From positions 248,001-312,000 of the forward strand of contig NZ_CP101824.1 of NCBI RefSeq assembly GCF_024498195.1: a stretch of DNA of 64,000 bases, given 5' to 3'. Below, piece by piece: positions 47,488 through 57,720 of this stretch. The stretch is from Halovivax cerinus. Lineage in GTDB: Archaea > Halobacteriota > Halobacteria > Halobacteriales > Natrialbaceae. The translations under genes were made by a program, and so were the position numbers. The notes beneath the pieces are model-generated. The model saw only the letters and a list, made by a program, of their open reading frames with translations. It made no database searches and was not told where the DNA came from. Position 1 is the first letter of the stretch, and each line of letters opens with the position of its first letter.

Positions 47488-48792
47488 TCACAGGCGCTCG
47501 AGAAACGTGTCGAATGCGCCGCTCTCGGGGTGGACGTGGGCATAGGTGCCCAGCGATCGGTACTCGGTCAGTCCGTCGTGGGTCCCGTCGAGTCCGGCTC
47601 CCCGAACGGTCTCGAACACGAACCGGGCGTCGCCGTCGACGGTCGCACTCGAGTAGTGGAACTCGTGGCCGCGAACCCGGTCACCGGACGCGGCGGTCAG
47701 CGTCCCGTCTATCGCCTCCAGTTCGACGTGGTCGAGCGCCTGGTACCGATCGTGCACGATCACGTCGGCGGGGAGCACGCCGGCCATCGCGTAGGTCTCG
47801 CCATCGGCCGTGGTTAGCGACTGTGACAGCGCCATCAACCCGCCGCACTCGCCGAGGACGGGACTGCCGTCGCTCGCGAGGGTTCCGAGTTCGGACACCG
47901 TTCCCGACGATTCGAGCGCCTCGGCGTGCAGTTCCGGATAGCCGCCGGGCAGGTAGACGCCGTCGCACTCGGGTACCGGATCGCCGGCGAGCGGCGAGAA
48001 CGTCTCGACCGCCGCTCGCTCCCGCAGCCGCTCGACGGTTGCGGGGTAGCGAAAACAGAAGGCCGCGTCGTCGGCCACCGCGACCGTGGCATCGACGGAC
48101 GTCCCGGCGTCTATCGACGACGGTGGCCCGTCGGCCGGTTCGCTCGCGATATCGACGAGCCGTTCCACGTCGAGGGGCTCTGCGGCCGTCGCCAGCACGT
48201 CTCTCGGAAGCGCCGACTCGTCGGCCAGTTCGAGGCCGAGGTGCCGGTCCGGAATCTCGAGGTCGGGGTTCGGGGGAATCCGGCCGACGTAGGTCAGATC
48301 GTCCGGCAGTGCCTCGCGGATTCCGGCCTCGTGACGTCCGCCGTGGGCGCGCTGGGCGACGACCCCCGCGACCTCGATGTCCCGACCGATCGCGTCGGCG
48401 TACTCGCGAAAGCCGAGCGCGGTCGCCGCGACACTCTCCATCCCGGCGCTCGCGTCCACGACGAGGACGATCGGCAGATCGAGCGCTTCGGCGACCATCG
48501 CCGTGCTCGATACGTCGCCGTCGTACAGCCCCATGACGCCCTCCACGACGCAGATATCGCCGTCGCCGCGGCCGTAGTTCCGCCGGAGACCGTCCGCGCC
48601 ACAGAGCCAGAGATCGAGCGTTCGCGAGGGACGACCGGCGACCGCCTCGTGGTGACCGGGATCGATGAAGTCCGGGCCCGCTTTCGCGGGCTGAACCGTG
48701 TAGCCCGCCTCGTCGAGGGCCGCGGCGATCGCCAGGGTAGCGACGGTCTTGCCGACGCCGGAGCTGACGCCGCCGAGGACGAATCCGTTCAT
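47488..48792 (-). CDS. cbiA: Cobyrinic acid a,c-diamide synthase
   Basis: A 434-aa CbiA/CobB family enzyme of the cobalamin pathway: ATP-dependent, glutamine-using amidation of the a and c carboxylates. N-terminal P-loop GGVSSGVGKTVATLA; KAGPDFIDPGHHEAV; EGVMGLYDG; the C-terminal amidotransferase has YLPGGYPE and the nucleophile Cys in VLGECGGLMALS, with a final His (SLGTYAHVHPES). All key parts are present. The ATG at 48792 is the natural start. No other cobalamin gene is seen in the window, so it is isolated or its partners lie elsewhere. Confidence 0.95.
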   Translation of the reverse strand: MNGFVLGGVSSGVGKTVATLAIAAALDEAGYTVQPAKAGPDFIDPGHHEAVAGRPSRTLDLWLCGADGLRRNYGRGDGDICVVEGVMGLYDGDVSSTAMVAEALDLPIVLVVDASAGMESVAATALGFREYADAIGRDIEVAGVVAQRAHGGRHEAGIREALPDDLTYVGRIPPNPDLEIPDRHLGLELADESALPRDVLATAAEPLDVERLVDIASEPADGPPSSIDAGTSVDATVAVADDAAFCFRYPATVERLRERAAVETFSPLAGDPVPECDGVYLPGGYPELHAEALESSGTVSELGTLASDGSPVLGECGGLMALSQSLTTADGETYAMAGVLPADVIVHDRYQALDHVELEAIDGTLTAASGDRVRGHEFHYSSATVDGDARFVFETVRGAGLDGTHDGLTEYRSLGTYAHVHPESGAFDTFLERL

Positions 48793-48964
48793 TACAGTTT
48801 CGTTTCTACAAGTGACCTTGAAGTTGTCGACGGCGTCCCGCCGGGCCGTCCGCCGGTCTGGAACGGGCCCACCGGCCGGCGCGACCGGTTCGACCACAGG
48901 ACCCGTTCGGTCGACCGAGCCCGGCGTCGTCTGGCTCGGCGAAGGCTTCGGCCTGACGTTCCGC

Positions 48965-49099
48965 ATGCCGACCGGCTTCCTCTGGGGCGCCGCGCTCATC
49001 CTCTCGATGTTGCTCATGCTCTACGCGACGGTGACGAACGATGGCGACGATGATGTGAGCGGCGCGGGCTCCGGTCGCGGCGCACCGGCGGACGACTGA
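48965..49099 (+). CDS. Small single-helix membrane protein
   Basis: A 44-aa frame: MPTGFLWGAALILSMLLMLY is a clean membrane helix, then an acidic tail (NDGDDDVSGAGSG). The frame runs upstream to 48749, overlapping cbiA antisense, but the ATG at 48965 gives a sensible protein. Such mini membrane proteins are common in haloarchaea. Coding status is plausible, not certain. Confidence 0.4.
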   Translation: MPTGFLWGAALILSMLLMLYATVTNDGDDDVSGAGSGRGAPADD

Positions 49100-50157: not shown

Positions 50158-50844
50158 ATGGGATTGGTAGCTGAATTCGACATCGAGTGTCCCGCGTTAC
50201 CGCTCGCGGGTGTCGCGTCGGCCGTCCCCGAGGCGACTATCGGCCTCGACCTCCAGTACAACCACGGCGATCGGCCGCCGTTCGTCGTCACCGTGACCGA
50301 TGGCTCCCGGCGCGCGCTCGAACCGGCGCTGACCGACGCCGACGACGTCGCGACGTGGACGCTGATCGGCGACGCTGGGTCCACGCGCCGGTACCGGGCA
50401 CGACCCGCCTACAGCTTCGCCGACCAGCTCGGCGACGCCATCGACGACCTAGAGGGGCTCACCGACCTCGCCACCGAAGACGCCATCATCGAACGCATCG
50501 AGGTGCTGCCCGGGGGCTGGCGACAGACGGGCTGGTTCCTCGATCGGACGGCGTTCGACGCGTTCGCCTCGTTCTGGCAGGACAACGCCGGATTCAGGCT
50601 CCGCCGGCTCACCTGCGACGGCGACCCCGAACCGGCGGGCGACGGGCTGACCGACGAACAGCGTGAAGCGCTCCGGATCGCCTACGAACGGGGATACTTC
50701 GAGATTCCCCGCCGGACCTCGCTCGACGCGCTCGCCGACGAACTCGACATTGCCGCCTCCTCGGTCTCGGAGCGACTGCGTCGGGCCCAGACGCAACTCG
50801 TCCAGGAGACCGTCGCGCCGACGTGGCCACCGGCGCCGAACTGA
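50158..50844 (+). CDS. HTH-10 (Bat-type) transcriptional regulator 1
   Basis: A 228-aa regulator. Residues 1-165 form the N-terminal sensor half of Bat-like regulators (MGLVAEFDIECPALPLAGVA). The C-terminal HTH-10 begins LTDEQREALRIAYERGYFEI and goes on PRRTSLDALADELDIAASSV with SERLRRAQ as recognition helix. It regulates unknown targets, perhaps the tandem CHAT-like genes next to it. The ATG at 50158 is preferred to 50140. Confidence 0.92.
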   Translation: MGLVAEFDIECPALPLAGVASAVPEATIGLDLQYNHGDRPPFVVTVTDGSRRALEPALTDADDVATWTLIGDAGSTRRYRARPAYSFADQLGDAIDDLEGLTDLATEDAIIERIEVLPGGWRQTGWFLDRTAFDAFASFWQDNAGFRLRRLTCDGDPEPAGDGLTDEQREALRIAYERGYFEIPRRTSLDALADELDIAASSVSERLRRAQTQLVQETVAPTWPPAPN

Positions 50845-51163: not shown

Positions 51164-51266
51164 GGTCGCGGCGAGGCGCGTTAGCTCCCCGTCGAGGTCG
51201 CCCCGAACCCGTGTTCGACGCCGAGTCGGTACAAGTATATTTAATCATCTCGTACGGTTCGATAAA

Positions 51267-53366
51267 ATGGTTGACGGCGCGGCACGATCCCCCGTGTTCT
51301 TCGAGCGAGCAGACTCCACCGTCCGCGTCGGGGACGACATCGAGGGCGCCGAGGTGAGAATCGAGATCGACGGGGAACCGGCGCTCGAGCCGGCGCTTCC
51401 CGACGTGTTTCTGTTTCCAGTCGACGAGGCGGTCTCGGTCGTCGCCTCCCGAATGCGCCTGCACGAAACGTTCGGGCAAACGGTCTGGGACCGGGACGGA
51501 AACCGGGTCGGTCTCATCGCGGACGGTCTCGACGACCTCCCGCGAGGGACGTACCACGCGTCGATCACCGGCGCGGTGAAGATCCACCTCCGGTTCGAGG
51601 GCGCGGTGGACACGGCCGAGGAGTACTTCGACGAGGCGGGCCATTCGATCGTCGAGTTGCGCTTCGACGAGCCGACGTCCGTAGCGATCGGTGCCCGCTC
51701 GTTCCGATCGTTTCCGTCGGCGACGATCACGGTCCCCGACGAACCCGAGTCGCTGCTCTCCGCCCTCCCGTACCTGTCGTCGTCGATCAAGGAGTTTACC
51801 TGCGAGCGGTCCTGGCCGACGCTCAGGCAACACCCGCCGGCGATCGAACGCGGCGACCGGCTGGACGTCCCGCCGGAACTCCGGCTCCCGGAGACAGGCG
51901 TCGAAATTCGCGTCCCGGCGACCTACGAACACTGCTACCAGGTGGCACCGCTCGCGTTCTACCTAGGAGCGGATCTCTGCGTCGGTGACGTACCCACGCT
52001 CGTCCTCGAGAACGGCCACGTCGAACCGCTCGCGACGGGTCGAGCGAGCCTGTCTGAGTGCGTCGGCGACCTCCTCGGTCGATGTCTGTTGCTCGACTCG
52101 CTGGTACGGAAAGCGGGCTATAAACCGATGGAGAACGCCGAATACGACCAGCTAGCGCCGGAGTTGCCGTTCTATCCACCCAATCTGTACGACGTCCCCC
52201 TGGCGGATCAGTTACTCGAGTACCTCGAGGTACCCCACGACGTGCTCGCTCCCTACGTGCCACGCTGGCCGAAGCGAGCCGTCTTGCGGCCGACAATCGC
52301 CGACGTCGCGTGTCTCCCCTCGCTGTTACACGAACTCGCCCGTATCGACGTCGCCCCGTCGGCCGAGCGCGTTCATCCGACGATCTCGGACGGCGAGCGT
52401 GGGGAAACACGCCGGGATCGGAACCGAGAGGCCCAGCGATCGGCCGCGCTCCTGACCGCACACACGTTCCCGGAACCGGTGTCGGGAAGCTGTCGGTTGT
52501 ATCCGGACGCGATGAAGCGGGCGCCGACCGTCGAACGGCCCGCCCCAGACTGTGCGCACCTCACCCTCGCGACGGACGACCCGGATCGGGCGCGAGCGTT
52601 TCACCGGTTCGCCGACCGCATCCGCCACGAGACGACGATATCGGTGCTCGAAGCGCCCGCGGCGTCGACGCTTCGCGAGGCGCTCTGTGCCGACCGAACG
52701 GCCCTGTACTGCGAACTCGCGACGAACGGAGACGGAATACGCTGTTCCGACCGGCGGCTCCGATTCGATACGCTACAGGACGTCGAATCTCCGGTCGTCT
52801 GGCTCGCCGGGGCGCCGCCCGGGGCAACCGGAGATTCCCTCGTCTCCAGCGGCGCGATCGCGGTCGTACTCACTGACGACGCGCCGGACGGGACGACGAT
52901 TTGCGGAACGTTCACCCAGTTGCTCGCGGGATTCTCCGTCGCGGACGCGGTGTACACGGCCGACGTCGACCGCGAGGTCGCCGTCCGGTTCGTCGGCGAC
53001 GCCTCCGTGACGGTGGTTCGCCACGTCTGCAAGTCGCCGGCGGTGTTCGACGTCAGTTCGATCGGGGACGACCGCTACGCGTTTACGATTCGAAGTTATC
53101 CCACCGACGTCGTCCGGCAAGGAGCGGCCATCGAGCCCCTCAGCCCCGACGACGTCATCGGCCGGGTCTTGGCGGAGTGCAACCACGACGGGAACTGGCT
53201 CGTTGGCACCGACGCGGAACAGGCGCTTCCGATCACGACGGAGGAAGTCGCGGCCCTGATCGACGACGACGGCTTTTCCGTCCGCCTCGACGGGCGTCTC
53301 GTGGTCGCCGACGACGCGTCCGAACGGGACCGACAAGAGGTCGTTCGCGAGAGGAACCCCGGCTGA
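51267..53366 (+). CDS. Large protein A, possible degenerate CHAT domain
   Basis: A 699-aa soluble protein, one of two tandem paralogues. The N-terminal ~190 aa are a beta-rich domain (ADSTVRVGDDIEGAEVRIEI). A middle part has conserved YEHCYQVAPLAFYLGADL and PPNLYDVPLADQLLEYLEV. The last ~250 aa show the order of a CHAT (caspase-like) domain: TALYCELATNGDGIRC (where H-x-x-x-HG would be), VVWLAGAPPG (~509, where the catalytic NAC would be), SSGAIAVVL, then GFSVADAVY and RFVGDASVTV, which match the usual CHAT ending. The catalytic His and Cys look replaced. The CHAT reading is inference. The ATG at 51267 follows AT-rich TATATTTAATCAT (51236-51248), a good TATA site. Confidence 0.7.
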   Translation: MVDGAARSPVFFERADSTVRVGDDIEGAEVRIEIDGEPALEPALPDVFLFPVDEAVSVVASRMRLHETFGQTVWDRDGNRVGLIADGLDDLPRGTYHASITGAVKIHLRFEGAVDTAEEYFDEAGHSIVELRFDEPTSVAIGARSFRSFPSATITVPDEPESLLSALPYLSSSIKEFTCERSWPTLRQHPPAIERGDRLDVPPELRLPETGVEIRVPATYEHCYQVAPLAFYLGADLCVGDVPTLVLENGHVEPLATGRASLSECVGDLLGRCLLLDSLVRKAGYKPMENAEYDQLAPELPFYPPNLYDVPLADQLLEYLEVPHDVLAPYVPRWPKRAVLRPTIADVACLPSLLHELARIDVAPSAERVHPTISDGERGETRRDRNREAQRSAALLTAHTFPEPVSGSCRLYPDAMKRAPTVERPAPDCAHLTLATDDPDRARAFHRFADRIRHETTISVLEAPAASTLREALCADRTALYCELATNGDGIRCSDRRLRFDTLQDVESPVVWLAGAPPGATGDSLVSSGAIAVVLTDDAPDGTTICGTFTQLLAGFSVADAVYTADVDREVAVRFVGDASVTVVRHVCKSPAVFDVSSIGDDRYAFTIRSYPTDVVRQGAAIEPLSPDDVIGRVLAECNHDGNWLVGTDAEQALPITTEEVAALIDDDGFSVRLDGRLVVADDASERDRQEVVRERNPG

Positions 53367-53527
53367 CAGTCCAAGGTCGCGACGGCGGCCGAGCGTCGAG
53401 GAGCGGGCAGCGGTCGACTGCGGGTCGTGCGTCCGAACACGGGGGCCGGCCACGACGGTGCGGTTCGATCGGCCGCGGTCGGAGCGGCACCGATATATTC
53501 CGTTCGGACGAACGGTCGACAGAGCCG

Positions 53528-55636
53528 ATGACTCGCAGTCCCCACTCACCCGTCTCCTTCGACCGGGACGGCTCGACCGTCCGCGTCGCGGACGACCTGG
53601 AGGGCGCCGAGGTGACCATCGAGATCGACGGCGATCCGACACTCACGCCGGCGCTTCCCGACGTGTTCCTGTTTCCGGTCGACGAGGCGGTCTCGGTCAC
53701 CGTCTCCCGACTCCGCGTGTGCGGGGCGTTCGGTCGGTCGCTCTGGGACGCAGAGGGTAAGCCGGTCGAGAACCTCACGACAGCGCACACCTCCCTCCCG
53801 AGGGCGACGTACCACGCGTCGATCACCGGTTCGGTGAAGCTCCACCTCCGGATCGAGGACGCGATGGTTCGGGCCGAGGAGTACCTCGACGACGCGGACC
53901 GATCCATCGTCGAGATGCACTTCGACGAGCCGACGTCGGTGGCCATCGGCGCCCGCTCGCTCCGATCGCACCCTTCGTCGGCGATCACGGTTCCCGACGA
54001 TCCGGAGGCGCTGCTCGAGGCGCTTCCGTACCTGGCGTCCTCGATCAAGGAGTTTACCCCCGAGTGTTCGTGGCCGACGCTCAGGCAACACCCGCCGGCG
54101 ATCGAGCGGGGCGACCGCCTCTCGATCCCGCCGGACGTGCGACGCCCGGAGACGGGCGTCGAGATTCGCCTCCCACCCACCTACGAACACTGCTACACCG
54201 TCGCACCGCTCGCATTCTACCTCGGTGCGGATCTCGTCGCCGGCGACGCACCCGCGCTCGTCCTCGAAAACGGCCACGTCGAACCGCTCGAGACGACGGA
54301 GGCGTCGCTGTCCGAGCGGGTCACTGACGTCCTCGGCCGGTGTCTACTGCTCGATTCTCTGGTTCGGGAGGCCGGCTACCAGACGGTCGGAAACGCCGAG
54401 TACGATCACCTGGCACCGCAACTGCCGTTCTACCCGCCGAACCTGTACGACCTCTCGCCGTCGGAACGGTTACTCGAGTATCTCGACGTGGCGCACGAGG
54501 TGCTCTCGCCGTATCGTCCGCGCTGGCCGAAACGGGCCGTCCTGCGGCCGGATCCGGCCGACGCCGTGTGTCTGCCCGGGCTGTTGCACGAGCTCGCACG
54601 AATCGACGTCGCTCGGTCGCCGGACGCCGTTCCCCCGACGGTGACCACCGACGAGGATGCGGTCGTCGGATGCGATGGAAACGCGGGTGCGAGACGGCCG
54701 GACGCCCTCCTAACCGCCCACACGTTTCCGGCGTCGGTGACCGGAACCTGCCGGCTCCGGGCGGAGGCGATGCAACTGGCACCCACTATCGAACGACCCA
54801 CTCCCGACCGTGCCCACCTCACGCTCGCGACGGACGATCCGGAGCGGGCCGGCGCATTCCGGCGATTCGCCGACCGTCTTTCCGACGAGACGACGATCTC
54901 GGTGCTCGAACGGCCCACGGCGTCGACGCTTTGCGAGGCGCTTTGTGACGAGCGAACCGCCCTCTACTGCGAACAACCGGCCAGCGAGGACGGGATCCGC
55001 TGTGCAGACCGGACGCTACGCCTCGGCGAGGTGGGGGACGTCGCGACCCCGGTCGTCTGGCTCGCCGACGCCGCGTCCGGGAGTGACGGCGATACGCTCG
55101 TCTCCGCAGGCGCCGTCGCCGTCGCGTCCACCGCCGGTGTCCCCGACCGTGAGCGGGTCTGCGGAGCGCTCGCTCAACTCCTCGGAGGGTTTTCCGTCGC
55201 GGACGCGGTGTACACGGCCGGCGTCGATCGCGACGTCGACGTCCGGTTCGTCGGCGACGCCTCCGTGACGGTCGTTCGTAGCGTAAACAGTGCCCCGACG
55301 ATGATCGACCTTGCCACAGTCGATTCGGATCGGTTCACCCTCACTCTCAAGAACTATCCCACCGGCGTTCTCCGGCAGGGCTCGACCGTCCGGCACGTCG
55401 GGTCGGACGACCCCGTCGGACGGATCGTCGAGGAGTGTCTCCGCGAGGGACACCGACTGATCGGTACGATCGCAGCGCAGCCGTCGTCGCTCACGGCGGC
55501 CGAGGTCGCATCACTCGTCGCCGAGGGCGACTTCGCCGTCCGTCTCGATGGGCGGTTGCTGGTCGGTACCGGAGAACTCCCCGGTGCCGACGGTTCCGGG
55601 CGCGACCGAGCGAGATCGGGTGTGAGCAGGCGCTGA
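53528..55636 (+). CDS. Large protein B, tandem paralogue of A
   Basis: A 702-aa protein colinear with the one at 51267 through its whole length, with strong identity in YEHCYTVAPLAFYLGADL, the PFYPPNLYDL block, RPRWPKRAVLRP and the C-terminal CHAT-like segment (VVWLADAASG at ~509, GGFSVADAVY, RFVGDASVTVV). The catalytic-looking His/Cys positions are again not conserved. It starts with ATG 160 nt after its sister and shares no operon overlap, though cotranscription is possible. No export signal. Function unknown. Confidence 0.72.
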   Translation: MTRSPHSPVSFDRDGSTVRVADDLEGAEVTIEIDGDPTLTPALPDVFLFPVDEAVSVTVSRLRVCGAFGRSLWDAEGKPVENLTTAHTSLPRATYHASITGSVKLHLRIEDAMVRAEEYLDDADRSIVEMHFDEPTSVAIGARSLRSHPSSAITVPDDPEALLEALPYLASSIKEFTPECSWPTLRQHPPAIERGDRLSIPPDVRRPETGVEIRLPPTYEHCYTVAPLAFYLGADLVAGDAPALVLENGHVEPLETTEASLSERVTDVLGRCLLLDSLVREAGYQTVGNAEYDHLAPQLPFYPPNLYDLSPSERLLEYLDVAHEVLSPYRPRWPKRAVLRPDPADAVCLPGLLHELARIDVARSPDAVPPTVTTDEDAVVGCDGNAGARRPDALLTAHTFPASVTGTCRLRAEAMQLAPTIERPTPDRAHLTLATDDPERAGAFRRFADRLSDETTISVLERPTASTLCEALCDERTALYCEQPASEDGIRCADRTLRLGEVGDVATPVVWLADAASGSDGDTLVSAGAVAVASTAGVPDRERVCGALAQLLGGFSVADAVYTAGVDRDVDVRFVGDASVTVVRSVNSAPTMIDLATVDSDRFTLTLKNYPTGVLRQGSTVRHVGSDDPVGRIVEECLREGHRLIGTIAAQPSSLTAAEVASLVAEGDFAVRLDGRLLVGTGELPGADGSGRDRARSGVSRR

Positions 55637-55727: not shown

Positions 55728-56087
55728 CTACAGAGAGAAAGAAGACTCGAATTCCGGGTCGATCTGGAGGATCGACGCGATGGCAGGCGCAGTGCGGTCG
55801 AAGCGCTCCGTCGGCATCACCTGCCAATCATCGGTGTCGTACTCGACGAATCCAGCATCTGCGAGTTTCGGGAGGTGTGCGTGTACGAGTGAGATCTCGA
55901 TACGGTTCGTCGTCTCGCCGGAGACCGAGGCGGGATCGACGTGATGATTGTGTTCGACGATCGCGTCCACGAGACGGTCGATCGACAGCGACTCCTGGTG
56001 ATCGATCAGTTCCGCGAGAACGATGCGACGGTGTGCATCCGTACAGAGTTCGAGAGCGGCGTCGAACTCGTTGTAGGTCCCAACCAT
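55728..56087 (-). CDS. DUF7344-like winged-helix protein
   Basis: A 119-aa protein: FDAALELCTDAHRRIVLAEL starts a winged-helix typical of haloarchaeal DUF7344 regulators, with LVHAHLPKLADAGFVEYDTD as the wing/recognition part. The first ~20 aa and last ~20 aa are tails. Likely a DNA-binding regulator. Convergent with protein B, 91 nt between. Confidence 0.85.
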   Translation of the reverse strand: MVGTYNEFDAALELCTDAHRRIVLAELIDHQESLSIDRLVDAIVEHNHHVDPASVSGETTNRIEISLVHAHLPKLADAGFVEYDTDDWQVMPTERFDRTAPAIASILQIDPEFESSFSL

Positions 56088-56143
56088 ACCCGGTATACGG
56101 TATCGAGGGGGTTCGTCACTGCTTTTGAGTATCCAACCCGTTT

Positions 56144-56809
56144 TTACGTGACAGAATCCATCGGTCGCAAATCTGGAAGCGTCTCTCCGAGAATGTGACT
56201 GATTCCCCGCCTGAGTCGGGACGCGACGGCCTGGTGTGAGATGTCGAGTTCCTCGCCGAGGTCCGTCATCGTCACGTCTCGCGGCGTATTGAAGTATCCT
56301 CGCTCGAACGCGAGGACGAGCGCCTCCCGCTGTGCGTCCGTGAGTCCGACTTCGGCCTCGGCGTCGATCGGCGTGAGCGAGTGGAGTTTCGTGAGCGTGA
56401 TCGGGATGTCGCGCTCACGACAGCCCCTCTGGAACGAGGCGATATCCTCCCGATCGTCGCCCCTGACGTCGAAGTGCCACTCTGTGGACGTCCCCTCTGC
56501 CGAGATAAGCGGGACGCCCGTCTCCATCAGCGTTTGCAAGATGCCGTCGTACTCGAGACTCCACTCGACGCGCAGCAGGTGCTGGTTCTCGACGGAATCG
56601 ACGTATCGGATCGCTTCGACGCCGGGGTGATCGTCGAACGCGCCCTCGACGTCGTCGACGTCGGTCCCCCGAACCCAGAAGTAGGGGATCACGACGTCGT
56701 TCGCCGGGATGATTCGCTCCAGCTGGACCGTCACTCCCGGGAGCCGTTCGAAGATCGTTCCCAGCGGGAACTGCTCTGCCGGAACGGTGACCGTCGCTTC
56801 GGTGGCCAT
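56144..56809 (-). CDS. HTH-10 (Bat-type) transcriptional regulator 2
   Basis: A 221-aa Bat-like regulator. N-terminal sensor half (TVTVPAEQFPLGTIFERLPG), then the HTH-10: LTDAQREALVLAFERGYFNT, PRDVTMTDLGEELDISHQAV with ASRLRRGISH as recognition helix. Targets unknown. The frame stays open upstream to 57118, but that part is antisense to the TrmB gene; the ATG at 56809 is natural. About 70 nt separate it from the TrmB gene on the same strand. Confidence 0.92.
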   Translation of the reverse strand: MATEATVTVPAEQFPLGTIFERLPGVTVQLERIIPANDVVIPYFWVRGTDVDDVEGAFDDHPGVEAIRYVDSVENQHLLRVEWSLEYDGILQTLMETGVPLISAEGTSTEWHFDVRGDDREDIASFQRGCRERDIPITLTKLHSLTPIDAEAEVGLTDAQREALVLAFERGYFNTPRDVTMTDLGEELDISHQAVASRLRRGISHILGETLPDLRPMDSVT

Positions 56810-56880
56810 GCCCGAATCACCGCTCGCTAGAGGTATAGGGTTGGTGCCGCCCCAACCCGGTCGAACCGTGCCGAGCGCCA

Positions 56881-57720
56881 TCACGACCCGTCCGCCGGCG
56901 ACGCCCCCGGGTCGTCGATCGGCAAGAGCCCGGTGGCCATCAACCGCCGCGCGATGACGACGATGCCGTTGTCGAAGCCGCCGCCGTAGACGGCCTGTTC
57001 GTGAGCACCCAGTGACCCACCACGCCCGGTGAACGAACTCACGAGGATCGTGTTTCGGTCGACGAGGAGGAGCCGACCGATCTTCGTGTCGTCGGCGTCC
57101 GGCGTCCCACGGAGCCACTCGAGACCGGAGACGAAGACGTTGGCCTCGGGGAGGCGCGCCTGGATCGTCTCCTCGAGGCCGCCCGATATCGTACCGAGGA
57201 GAACCGTGACGCCCCGCTGCTGGGCGAGACGGATCCGCTCTACCAGGTCGTCGGCGACGATCGACTCGTGGCCGATGACGAGGACGATCTCGTCGTCGGC
57301 GTCGTCCAGCAACTGGCTCGTCCGGTTCGCGATGGCTCGTTCGCCCGATAGTGCCCAGATCTCCTGCGAGATCGTCTCCGAGTCGCTCGCAGCAACCGGT
57401 TCGAGCCGACGAAGCGACGCCGCGAGTCGCTCCGCCCGGGACTCGTACGTCGACCGGAGGGTCTCGGCGGCCTCGTCGATCGGAACGGCGCGAAACCGCT
57501 GAGGATTCGCGTGTTGCACCTCGACGAGCCCGGACTTCTCCAGGACGCGGATCGCGTCGTACACCCTGGTCCGGGGGACCTCCGAGTGCTCGCTCACGTC
57601 CCTCGCCGTCCCGTCACGCGGCAGTCGGATCAGGGTGACGAACGCCCTGGCCTCGTACTCTTTGAGTCCCAGTTCCTGTAACAGTTCGACTGCCTGCTGC
57701 TGATTCGATAGATCCTCCAT
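56881..57720 (-). CDS. TrmB-family transcriptional regulator
   Basis: A 279-aa protein. AVELLQELGLKEYEARAFVT starts the TrmB HTH, PRTRVYDAIRVLEKSGLVEV is the recognition/wing part, and the C-terminal ~150 aa are a sensor (EIVLVIGHESIVADDLVERI). TrmB-like proteins bind sugars or other effectors and control metabolic or envelope genes. The ATG at 57720 is chosen over 57729. Its promoter lies in the long gap to the right. Confidence 0.92.
   Translation of the reverse strand: MEDLSNQQQAVELLQELGLKEYEARAFVTLIRLPRDGTARDVSEHSEVPRTRVYDAIRVLEKSGLVEVQHANPQRFRAVPIDEAAETLRSTYESRAERLAASLRRLEPVAASDSETISQEIWALSGERAIANRTSQLLDDADDEIVLVIGHESIVADDLVERIRLAQQRGVTVLLGTISGGLEETIQARLPEANVFVSGLEWLRGTPDADDTKIGRLLLVDRNTILVSSFTGRGGSLGAHEQAVYGGGFDNGIVVIARRLMATGLLPIDDPGASPADGS

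Follow-up and report, generated by a model that had tools for sequence, protein, structure and literature searches.

The window analysed here, a 64,000-nucleotide stretch of Halovivax cerinus DNA (assembly GCF_024498195.1, contig NZ_CP101824.1, positions 248,001 to 312,000), contains two tandem genes, both on the forward strand and separated by 161 bp, which encode the paralogous proteins A and B (Table 1). These proteins, of 699 and 702 amino acids, are colinear and identical at 442 of 688 positions (64%) over their full length, a similarity far above chance (E = 0). They belong to a large and unnamed haloarchaeal family of caspase-like proteins, most of which carry an intact pair of catalytic His and Cys residues, and it is very probable that they arose by tandem duplication in Halovivax from an old lineage of inactive proteins with a single origin. 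Taken as a whole, the data are best explained, at about even chances, by inactive caspase-fold duplicates that act as regulatory pseudo-proteases.

An earlier note on this DNA, made from its letters alone, had described two colinear tandem paralogues of about 700 amino acids with an N-terminal beta domain and the blocks GFSVADAVY and RFVGDASVTV near their end. The lengths and colinearity agree with this description, both blocks are found in both proteins, and the strands of the beta domain lie within residues 10–144 of the model of A described below. Since a TATA-like element precedes each gene, A and B may each have their own promoter. Neither protein matched any family in Pfam, NCBIfam or PADLOC, and the Pfam CHAT profile matched neither of them, while the Peptidase_C14 (p20) profile found nothing in A, B, their paralogues in the same genome or 67 relatives.

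Predicted Fold and Catalytic Residues

A structure of A was predicted with AlphaFold from an alignment of 80 family members, giving a predicted local distance difference test (pLDDT) of 91.1 and a predicted template modelling score (pTM) of 0.92. In this model, a beta domain (about residues 10–144) is followed by a middle alpha/beta domain (about 150–365), a linker, a second alpha/beta domain (about 429–585) and a beta-rich tail. A structure search against the PDB returned clan CD proteases as all of its top 18 matches (gingipain, separase and Csx29/TPR-CHAT) and nothing but clan CD proteases below E 0.001, with gingipain RgpB at 8.9e-6; the structures matched by A include 8eex, 7zoq and 7y84, while 8tl0 was matched by a dyad-bearing member. 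The model of an intact relative from Halomarina halobia (L026) matched separase (3.3e-8), gingipains and the SAVED-CHAT filament. The predicted fold of A is that of a caspase/CHAT-like clan CD protease, as the earlier note had proposed from the order of strands, and neither an unrelated fold nor a match to another known family emerged. Sequence evidence for kinship with CHAT proteins is weak, yet it points in the same direction as structure. Thus, the matches found by searching the PDB with sequence were all weak, a CHAT protein (8tl0, E 0.43) being among them, and the Pfam CHAT profile (E ≤ 1) matched 24 of 67 intact members with a best E of 1.7e-4. Three dyad-bearing members examined singly reached about 13 bits against a curated cut-off of 24, and the family falls just under the usual annotation thresholds. 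A search of predicted viral structures returned nothing informative.

The best PDB matches overall, separase and gingipain, extend over approximately 390–550 columns and reach beyond the C-terminal protease domain, at a sequence identity of about 8–14%. Such long alignments would fit a two-half arrangement in which a pseudo-protease precedes a protease. No sequence similarity between the middle and CHAT domains emerged when their profiles were compared, so the grounds for regarding the former as a pseudo-protease are confined to its topology and the long structural alignments.

Among 126 aligned members, 105 carry the two dyad motifs, [YF][IV]GH for His and LN[AGS]C for Cys, whereas the remaining 21 lack both residues and none lacks just one. 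Proteins A and B belong to the latter group, with Ala/Ala and Pro/Ala, respectively, at the His/Cys positions (Table 1). The replacement of both residues suspected in the earlier note is therefore borne out, and its judgement that the pair is probably non-catalytic appears right. In the lineage to which A and B belong, the His and Cys columns are filled by many different residues, as expected in the absence of constraint. Members with an intact dyad are called active below, their protease activity being putative.

Table 1. Features of the A/B locus, in window coordinates
Feature	Position	Strand	Basis
Protein A, 699-aa pseudo-CHAT (inactive caspase-fold) protein	51267..53366	+	Open reading frame, AlphaFold model, alignment
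A residues 9–145, N-terminal beta domain	51291..51701	+	AlphaFold secondary structure
A residues 150–365, middle alpha/beta domain with R(G/Q)HPP and AxYLGA motifs	51714..52361	+	Model, alignment
A residues 429–585, CHAT/caspase-like domain	52551..53021	+	Model, structure search, alignment
A Ala485, catalytic His position	52719..52721	+	Alignment with intact relatives
A Ala516, catalytic Cys position	52812..52814	+	Alignment with intact relatives
Protein B, 702-aa tandem paralogue of A	53528..55636	+	Open reading frame, alignment
B middle alpha/beta domain	53972..54619	+	Alignment with A
B CHAT/caspase-like domain	54809..55279	+	Alignment with A
B Pro484, catalytic His position	54977..54979	+	Alignment
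B Ala515, catalytic Cys position	55070..55072	+	Alignment
TATA-like element, 31 bp 5' of A start codon, leaderless-type spacing, putative promoter	51236..51241	+	Sequence; inference
TATA-like element, 34 bp 5' of B start codon, putative promoter	53494..53499	+	Sequence; inference
Flanking HTH_10 regulator; not counted in the system	50158..50844	+	Pfam
Flanking DUF7344, BAT-HTH_10 and TrmB regulators	55728..57714	-	Pfam

Distribution of the Family and Descent of Its Inactive Lineages

A scan of genome contigs with a single sequence found no relative of the pair, while an alignment-based scan found 231. The family is present in 364 of 392 Halobacteriales genomes (approximately 93%), in 86 of the 95 genera of the order, and in all 125 genomes of the taxonomic family of the window organism. 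When 393 genomes sampled from the phylum were searched, the only ones beyond Halobacteriales with a match were four from one Methanocella-like group, two of which we take to be Methanocella paludicola and M. arvoryzae. The proposal that the pair constitutes a new system standing on its own is not upheld by this survey, which places it as a Halovivax duplication inside a large family that mostly bears the dyad. The window genome (3.9 Mb, one contig) encodes ten members, the eight other than A and B being 26–36% identical, and Pfam returned nothing useful for these eight. Only two of the ten are intact (L009 and L010) and eight are inactive, an excess that represents an unusual expansion.

The tree of the family was built from the beta and middle domains, leaving out the CHAT domain, so decay of the latter cannot steer its topology. 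On this tree, A and B fall within a single branch of inactive proteins (support of 100 in the Shimodaira–Hasegawa-like approximate likelihood ratio test, SH-aLRT), which also includes proteins of Halarchaeum and Halospeciosus (Halobacteriaceae), Halorubrum and Haloparvum (Haloferacaceae) and other Halovivax species (Natrialbaceae). The dyad was lost once, long ago, in this lineage. A second inactive lineage, separate on the tree, is seen in Halovivax only, and a single origin of all inactive haloarchaeal members is rejected (approximately unbiased test, AU, p = 0.017). The tree requires three state changes, one of them in a Methanocella-like genome, where a member without His and Cys (L125, 7040–9100; FIGRHN and FFLCTDSS at the motif positions) apparently reflects an independent loss.

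Orthologues of A and B occur in H. asiaticus and in a genome with a 3,223,876-bp chromosome that we take to be H. ruber, and is so called below; they are 63–69% identical, the identity to A being 68% and 65% in H. asiaticus and 69% and 65% in H. ruber. Of five Halovivax genomes, H. ruber has its two copies in tandem like the window genome, H. asiaticus has them 11–12 kb apart, and two have a single copy. The duplication claimed in the earlier note clearly took place inside Halovivax, although the tree does not fix the order in which A, B and the orthologues from these two species branched.

Selection and Domain Constraint

The A/B lineage is under purifying selection: when the H. asiaticus and H. 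ruber genes are compared, the whole-gene ratio of nonsynonymous to synonymous substitution rates (dN/dS) is 0.19 (A) and 0.25 (B). Constraint in the inactive lineage is relaxed on the CHAT domain and not on the middle domain. Mean identity of the CHAT domain is 0.25 (0.16–0.35) in the inactive lineage versus 0.50 (0.34–0.75) in active members, while that of the middle domain is similar in the two groups (0.54 and 0.52). The middle domain is the most conserved part in inactive and active members alike. It holds most of the conserved positions of the inactive lineage (R181, S182, W183, P184, T185, R187, P190, P191, G234, A235, D277 and R281), and the conserved positions in common with Methanocella include S182, P184, R187, P191, P217, Y232, L233, G234, A235, D277 and R281. 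This pattern of sequence conservation is what would be expected if the part involved in binding or assembly had been kept and catalysis dropped. The three marks by which a regulatory pseudo-protease would be recognized, namely a retained fold, a lost dyad and purifying selection, are all found in A and B.

Genes Associated with Active and Inactive Members

Signalling genes are often found next to active members, and the recurrent genomic association of the family is that of DUF7504 genes with these members: at 30 of 70 active-member loci versus none of 16 inactive-member loci, DUF7504 is encoded on the same strand no more than 1.2 kb away, and only two further DUF7504 genes occur elsewhere in those loci. 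DUF7504 and an active member are a candidate conserved two-gene unit. The DUF7504 profile has only weak matches to KaiC, no mention of this domain was found in the literature searched, and beside one active member it is fused to DUF7344. Same-strand DUF7504 genes immediately upstream of or beside active members were noted in many genera (L145, 4978–7883, and the upstream genes in L057, L051, L060 and L032).

Active and inactive paralogues commonly reside in the same genome. All eight named genomes outside Halovivax with a full-length inactive member of the A/B lineage also carry a His/Cys member, as do the four Halovivax genomes examined by residue. Among 44 Halorubrum genomes, 36 carry both types, one only an inactive member and three only an active member, while the remaining four have neither or just a fragment; this division relies on scores, and was confirmed by residue for five newly retrieved inactive members. 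The association has a Fisher p of approximately 0.001–0.013, uncorrected for kinship.

In the second inactive lineage, three members of the window genome adjoin histidine kinases with PAS/GAF domains, and such an inactive member and its kinase could possibly form a sensor pair. Kinase-adjoining members of this lineage lie at L013 (3844–6315 and 6375–8405), L014 (6191–10715), L011 (6582–10405) and L154 (7841–12312), the pairing of the L013 type recurring in a sister Halovivax species (L154), and some of the kinases have a receiver-like N-terminus. Three further tandem members of the same lineage, at 0.87–0.88 Mb of the window genome (L012, 6601–13540), have no adjoining kinase.

Proposed Function and Alternative Explanations

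The family would consist of signal-controlled caspase-like proteases whose active members are linked to DUF7504 and two-component proteins. Proteins A and B would keep the ligand- or partner-binding, or oligomerizing, function of the middle domain in common with active paralogues and would modulate these in the same cell, for instance by competing for signal or substrate or by forming mixed oligomers, as FLIP-L does with caspase-8; we infer both the contact between inactive and active members and the direction of its effect. A role of A and B as non-catalytic regulators or decoys of active paralogues is the likeliest one, if somewhat short of an even chance. Several points weigh against this proposal. 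Co-occurrence counts for little, because active members are nearly universal, and one Halorubrum genome has an inactive member with no active one found. Moreover, the pair has no conserved neighbour and, thus, its genomic context gives no tie to an active paralogue. Finally, the binding between inactive and active members, the common ligand and even the protease activity of intact members are themselves presumed.

It is unlikely, though by no means negligible, that the middle domain has instead acquired a new enzymatic or binding function apart from protease control, with the CHAT remnant playing a purely structural role. The concentration of conserved positions in the middle domain while the CHAT domain drifts would fit this explanation, and so would the unrelated housekeeping genes that adjoin the inactive lineage. 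However, active members too have kept the majority of these residues, which indicates that the function of this domain is probably common to both rather than new.

That A and B are decaying gene copies heading for loss is very unlikely. The CHAT domain is about twice as diverged as in active members, and the copy number varies across Halovivax species (2/2/2/1/1), but the frames are open at full length in Halovivax and most Halorubrum, the dN/dS values are low, and one lineage has been kept across three families. It is highly improbable that both proteins are still proteases through displaced or different catalytic residues, as could be supposed from the retained fold and from Cys493 and Asp495, conserved in inactive and active members; these two residues are just as conserved where the dyad is intact, which indicates a structural role, and the dyad columns of the inactive lineage hold many residues. 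The idea that the pair and four neighbouring regulators form one regulated system is hardly tenable: the regulators truly adjoin the pair and the DUF7344 fusion noted above lies beside an active member, but none of the four flanks the tandem pair of H. ruber or the separate copies of H. asiaticus, so a conserved association is largely excluded.

Comparison with Known Caspase-Fold Proteins

CHAT peptidases (PF12770), which include Csx29/TPR-CHAT of Craspase and SAVED-CHAT, have the caspase-like fold in common with A, B and their family, whose intact relatives carry both dyad motifs. Proteins A and B differ from them in the loss of both catalytic residues and in an N-terminal half made of a beta domain and an alpha/beta domain, the model having these domains in place of TPR. 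Neither TPR, SAVED nor any CRISPR association was seen: A and B have no PADLOC match and no cas gene is among the identified recurrent neighbour families.

Bacterial pseudo-orthocaspases are likewise conserved prokaryotic caspase-fold proteins that have lost the His/Cys dyad (PMC6426788). They are, however, of the p20 (Peptidase_C14) type, commonly have Tyr/Ser at the dyad and are reported absent from Archaea (PMC6426788), whereas the haloarchaeal family is not matched by the p20 profile and shows no consistent replacement of the dyad. FLIP-L (PMC7586951) is an inactive paralogue of an active caspase (caspase-8) in the same cell, and serves here as an analogy for mechanism alone; A and B are not of that family, their domain architecture is unrelated, and their interaction with an active paralogue is a proposal only.

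Significance for Archaeal Caspase Biology

Of 114 archaeal genomes surveyed for p20-type homologues, 5 had metacaspases (PMC3501461). A later survey recovered 93 sequences from Archaea, each of them with the dyad, and no pseudo-variant in this domain of life (PMC6426788). The haloarchaeal family would escape such surveys because it is CHAT-like and lacks a p20 match. It occurs in about 93% of the genomes examined from haloarchaea, which were long believed to have no genes for caspases. While caspase-fold proteases and pseudo-proteases are known, the domain architecture described here is previously undescribed and its place in the tree of life is new. Moreover, the family includes archaeal pseudo-proteases that arose independently of one another and that reside in one cell with active paralogues. 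No paper joining CHAT domains with haloarchaea was found in a literature search that left subscription journals mostly outside, so an earlier mention is possible.

Extracts of Haloferax volcanii have very high caspase-like activity for which no gene homologue is known (PMC3615174). Each of 15 Haloferax species genomes examined, among which Haloferax volcanii was not singled out, has exactly one family member, with the dyad intact. This single member is a concrete gene to delete in a tractable archaeon, which makes the question of the source of this activity testable. As a bolder and quite unlikely extension, a lineage-wide haloarchaeal caspase-like pathway may exist, in which active CHAT proteins are fed by DUF7504 and two-component sensors and held in check or tuned by pseudo-caspases such as A and B, and whose active members would be the source of the Haloferax activity; another source, e.g., the proteasome, is possible.

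Flanking Genes and Further Observations

The four regulators which the earlier note had reported around the pair are present, with HTH_10 upstream (Pfam E-value 2.3e-20) and DUF7344 (2.3e-16), BAT with HTH_10 (about 1e-16) and TrmB (2e-20) downstream; their presence, from which controlled expression had been suggested, is local, as none of them stands beside the pair at the H. ruber and H. asiaticus loci. The H. ruber pair directly adjoins cobB, and the H. asiaticus copies lie among cobalamin and housekeeping genes. A cobyrinate diamide synthase-like gene (CbiA/GATase_3) is also found near the pair in the window, at 47488–49017. Since the H. ruber pair stands directly beside its cobyrinate gene, the abhydrolase and HTH_10 genes that intervene in the window look like a local difference.

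One family member of Halolamina pelagica is split over two open reading frames, apparently through a frameshift (L047, 8022–9907). Unannotated proteins of approximately 140 amino acids downstream and 235 amino acids upstream recur beside active members (L026, L040, L046, L064, L067, L070, L088, L091 and L092).

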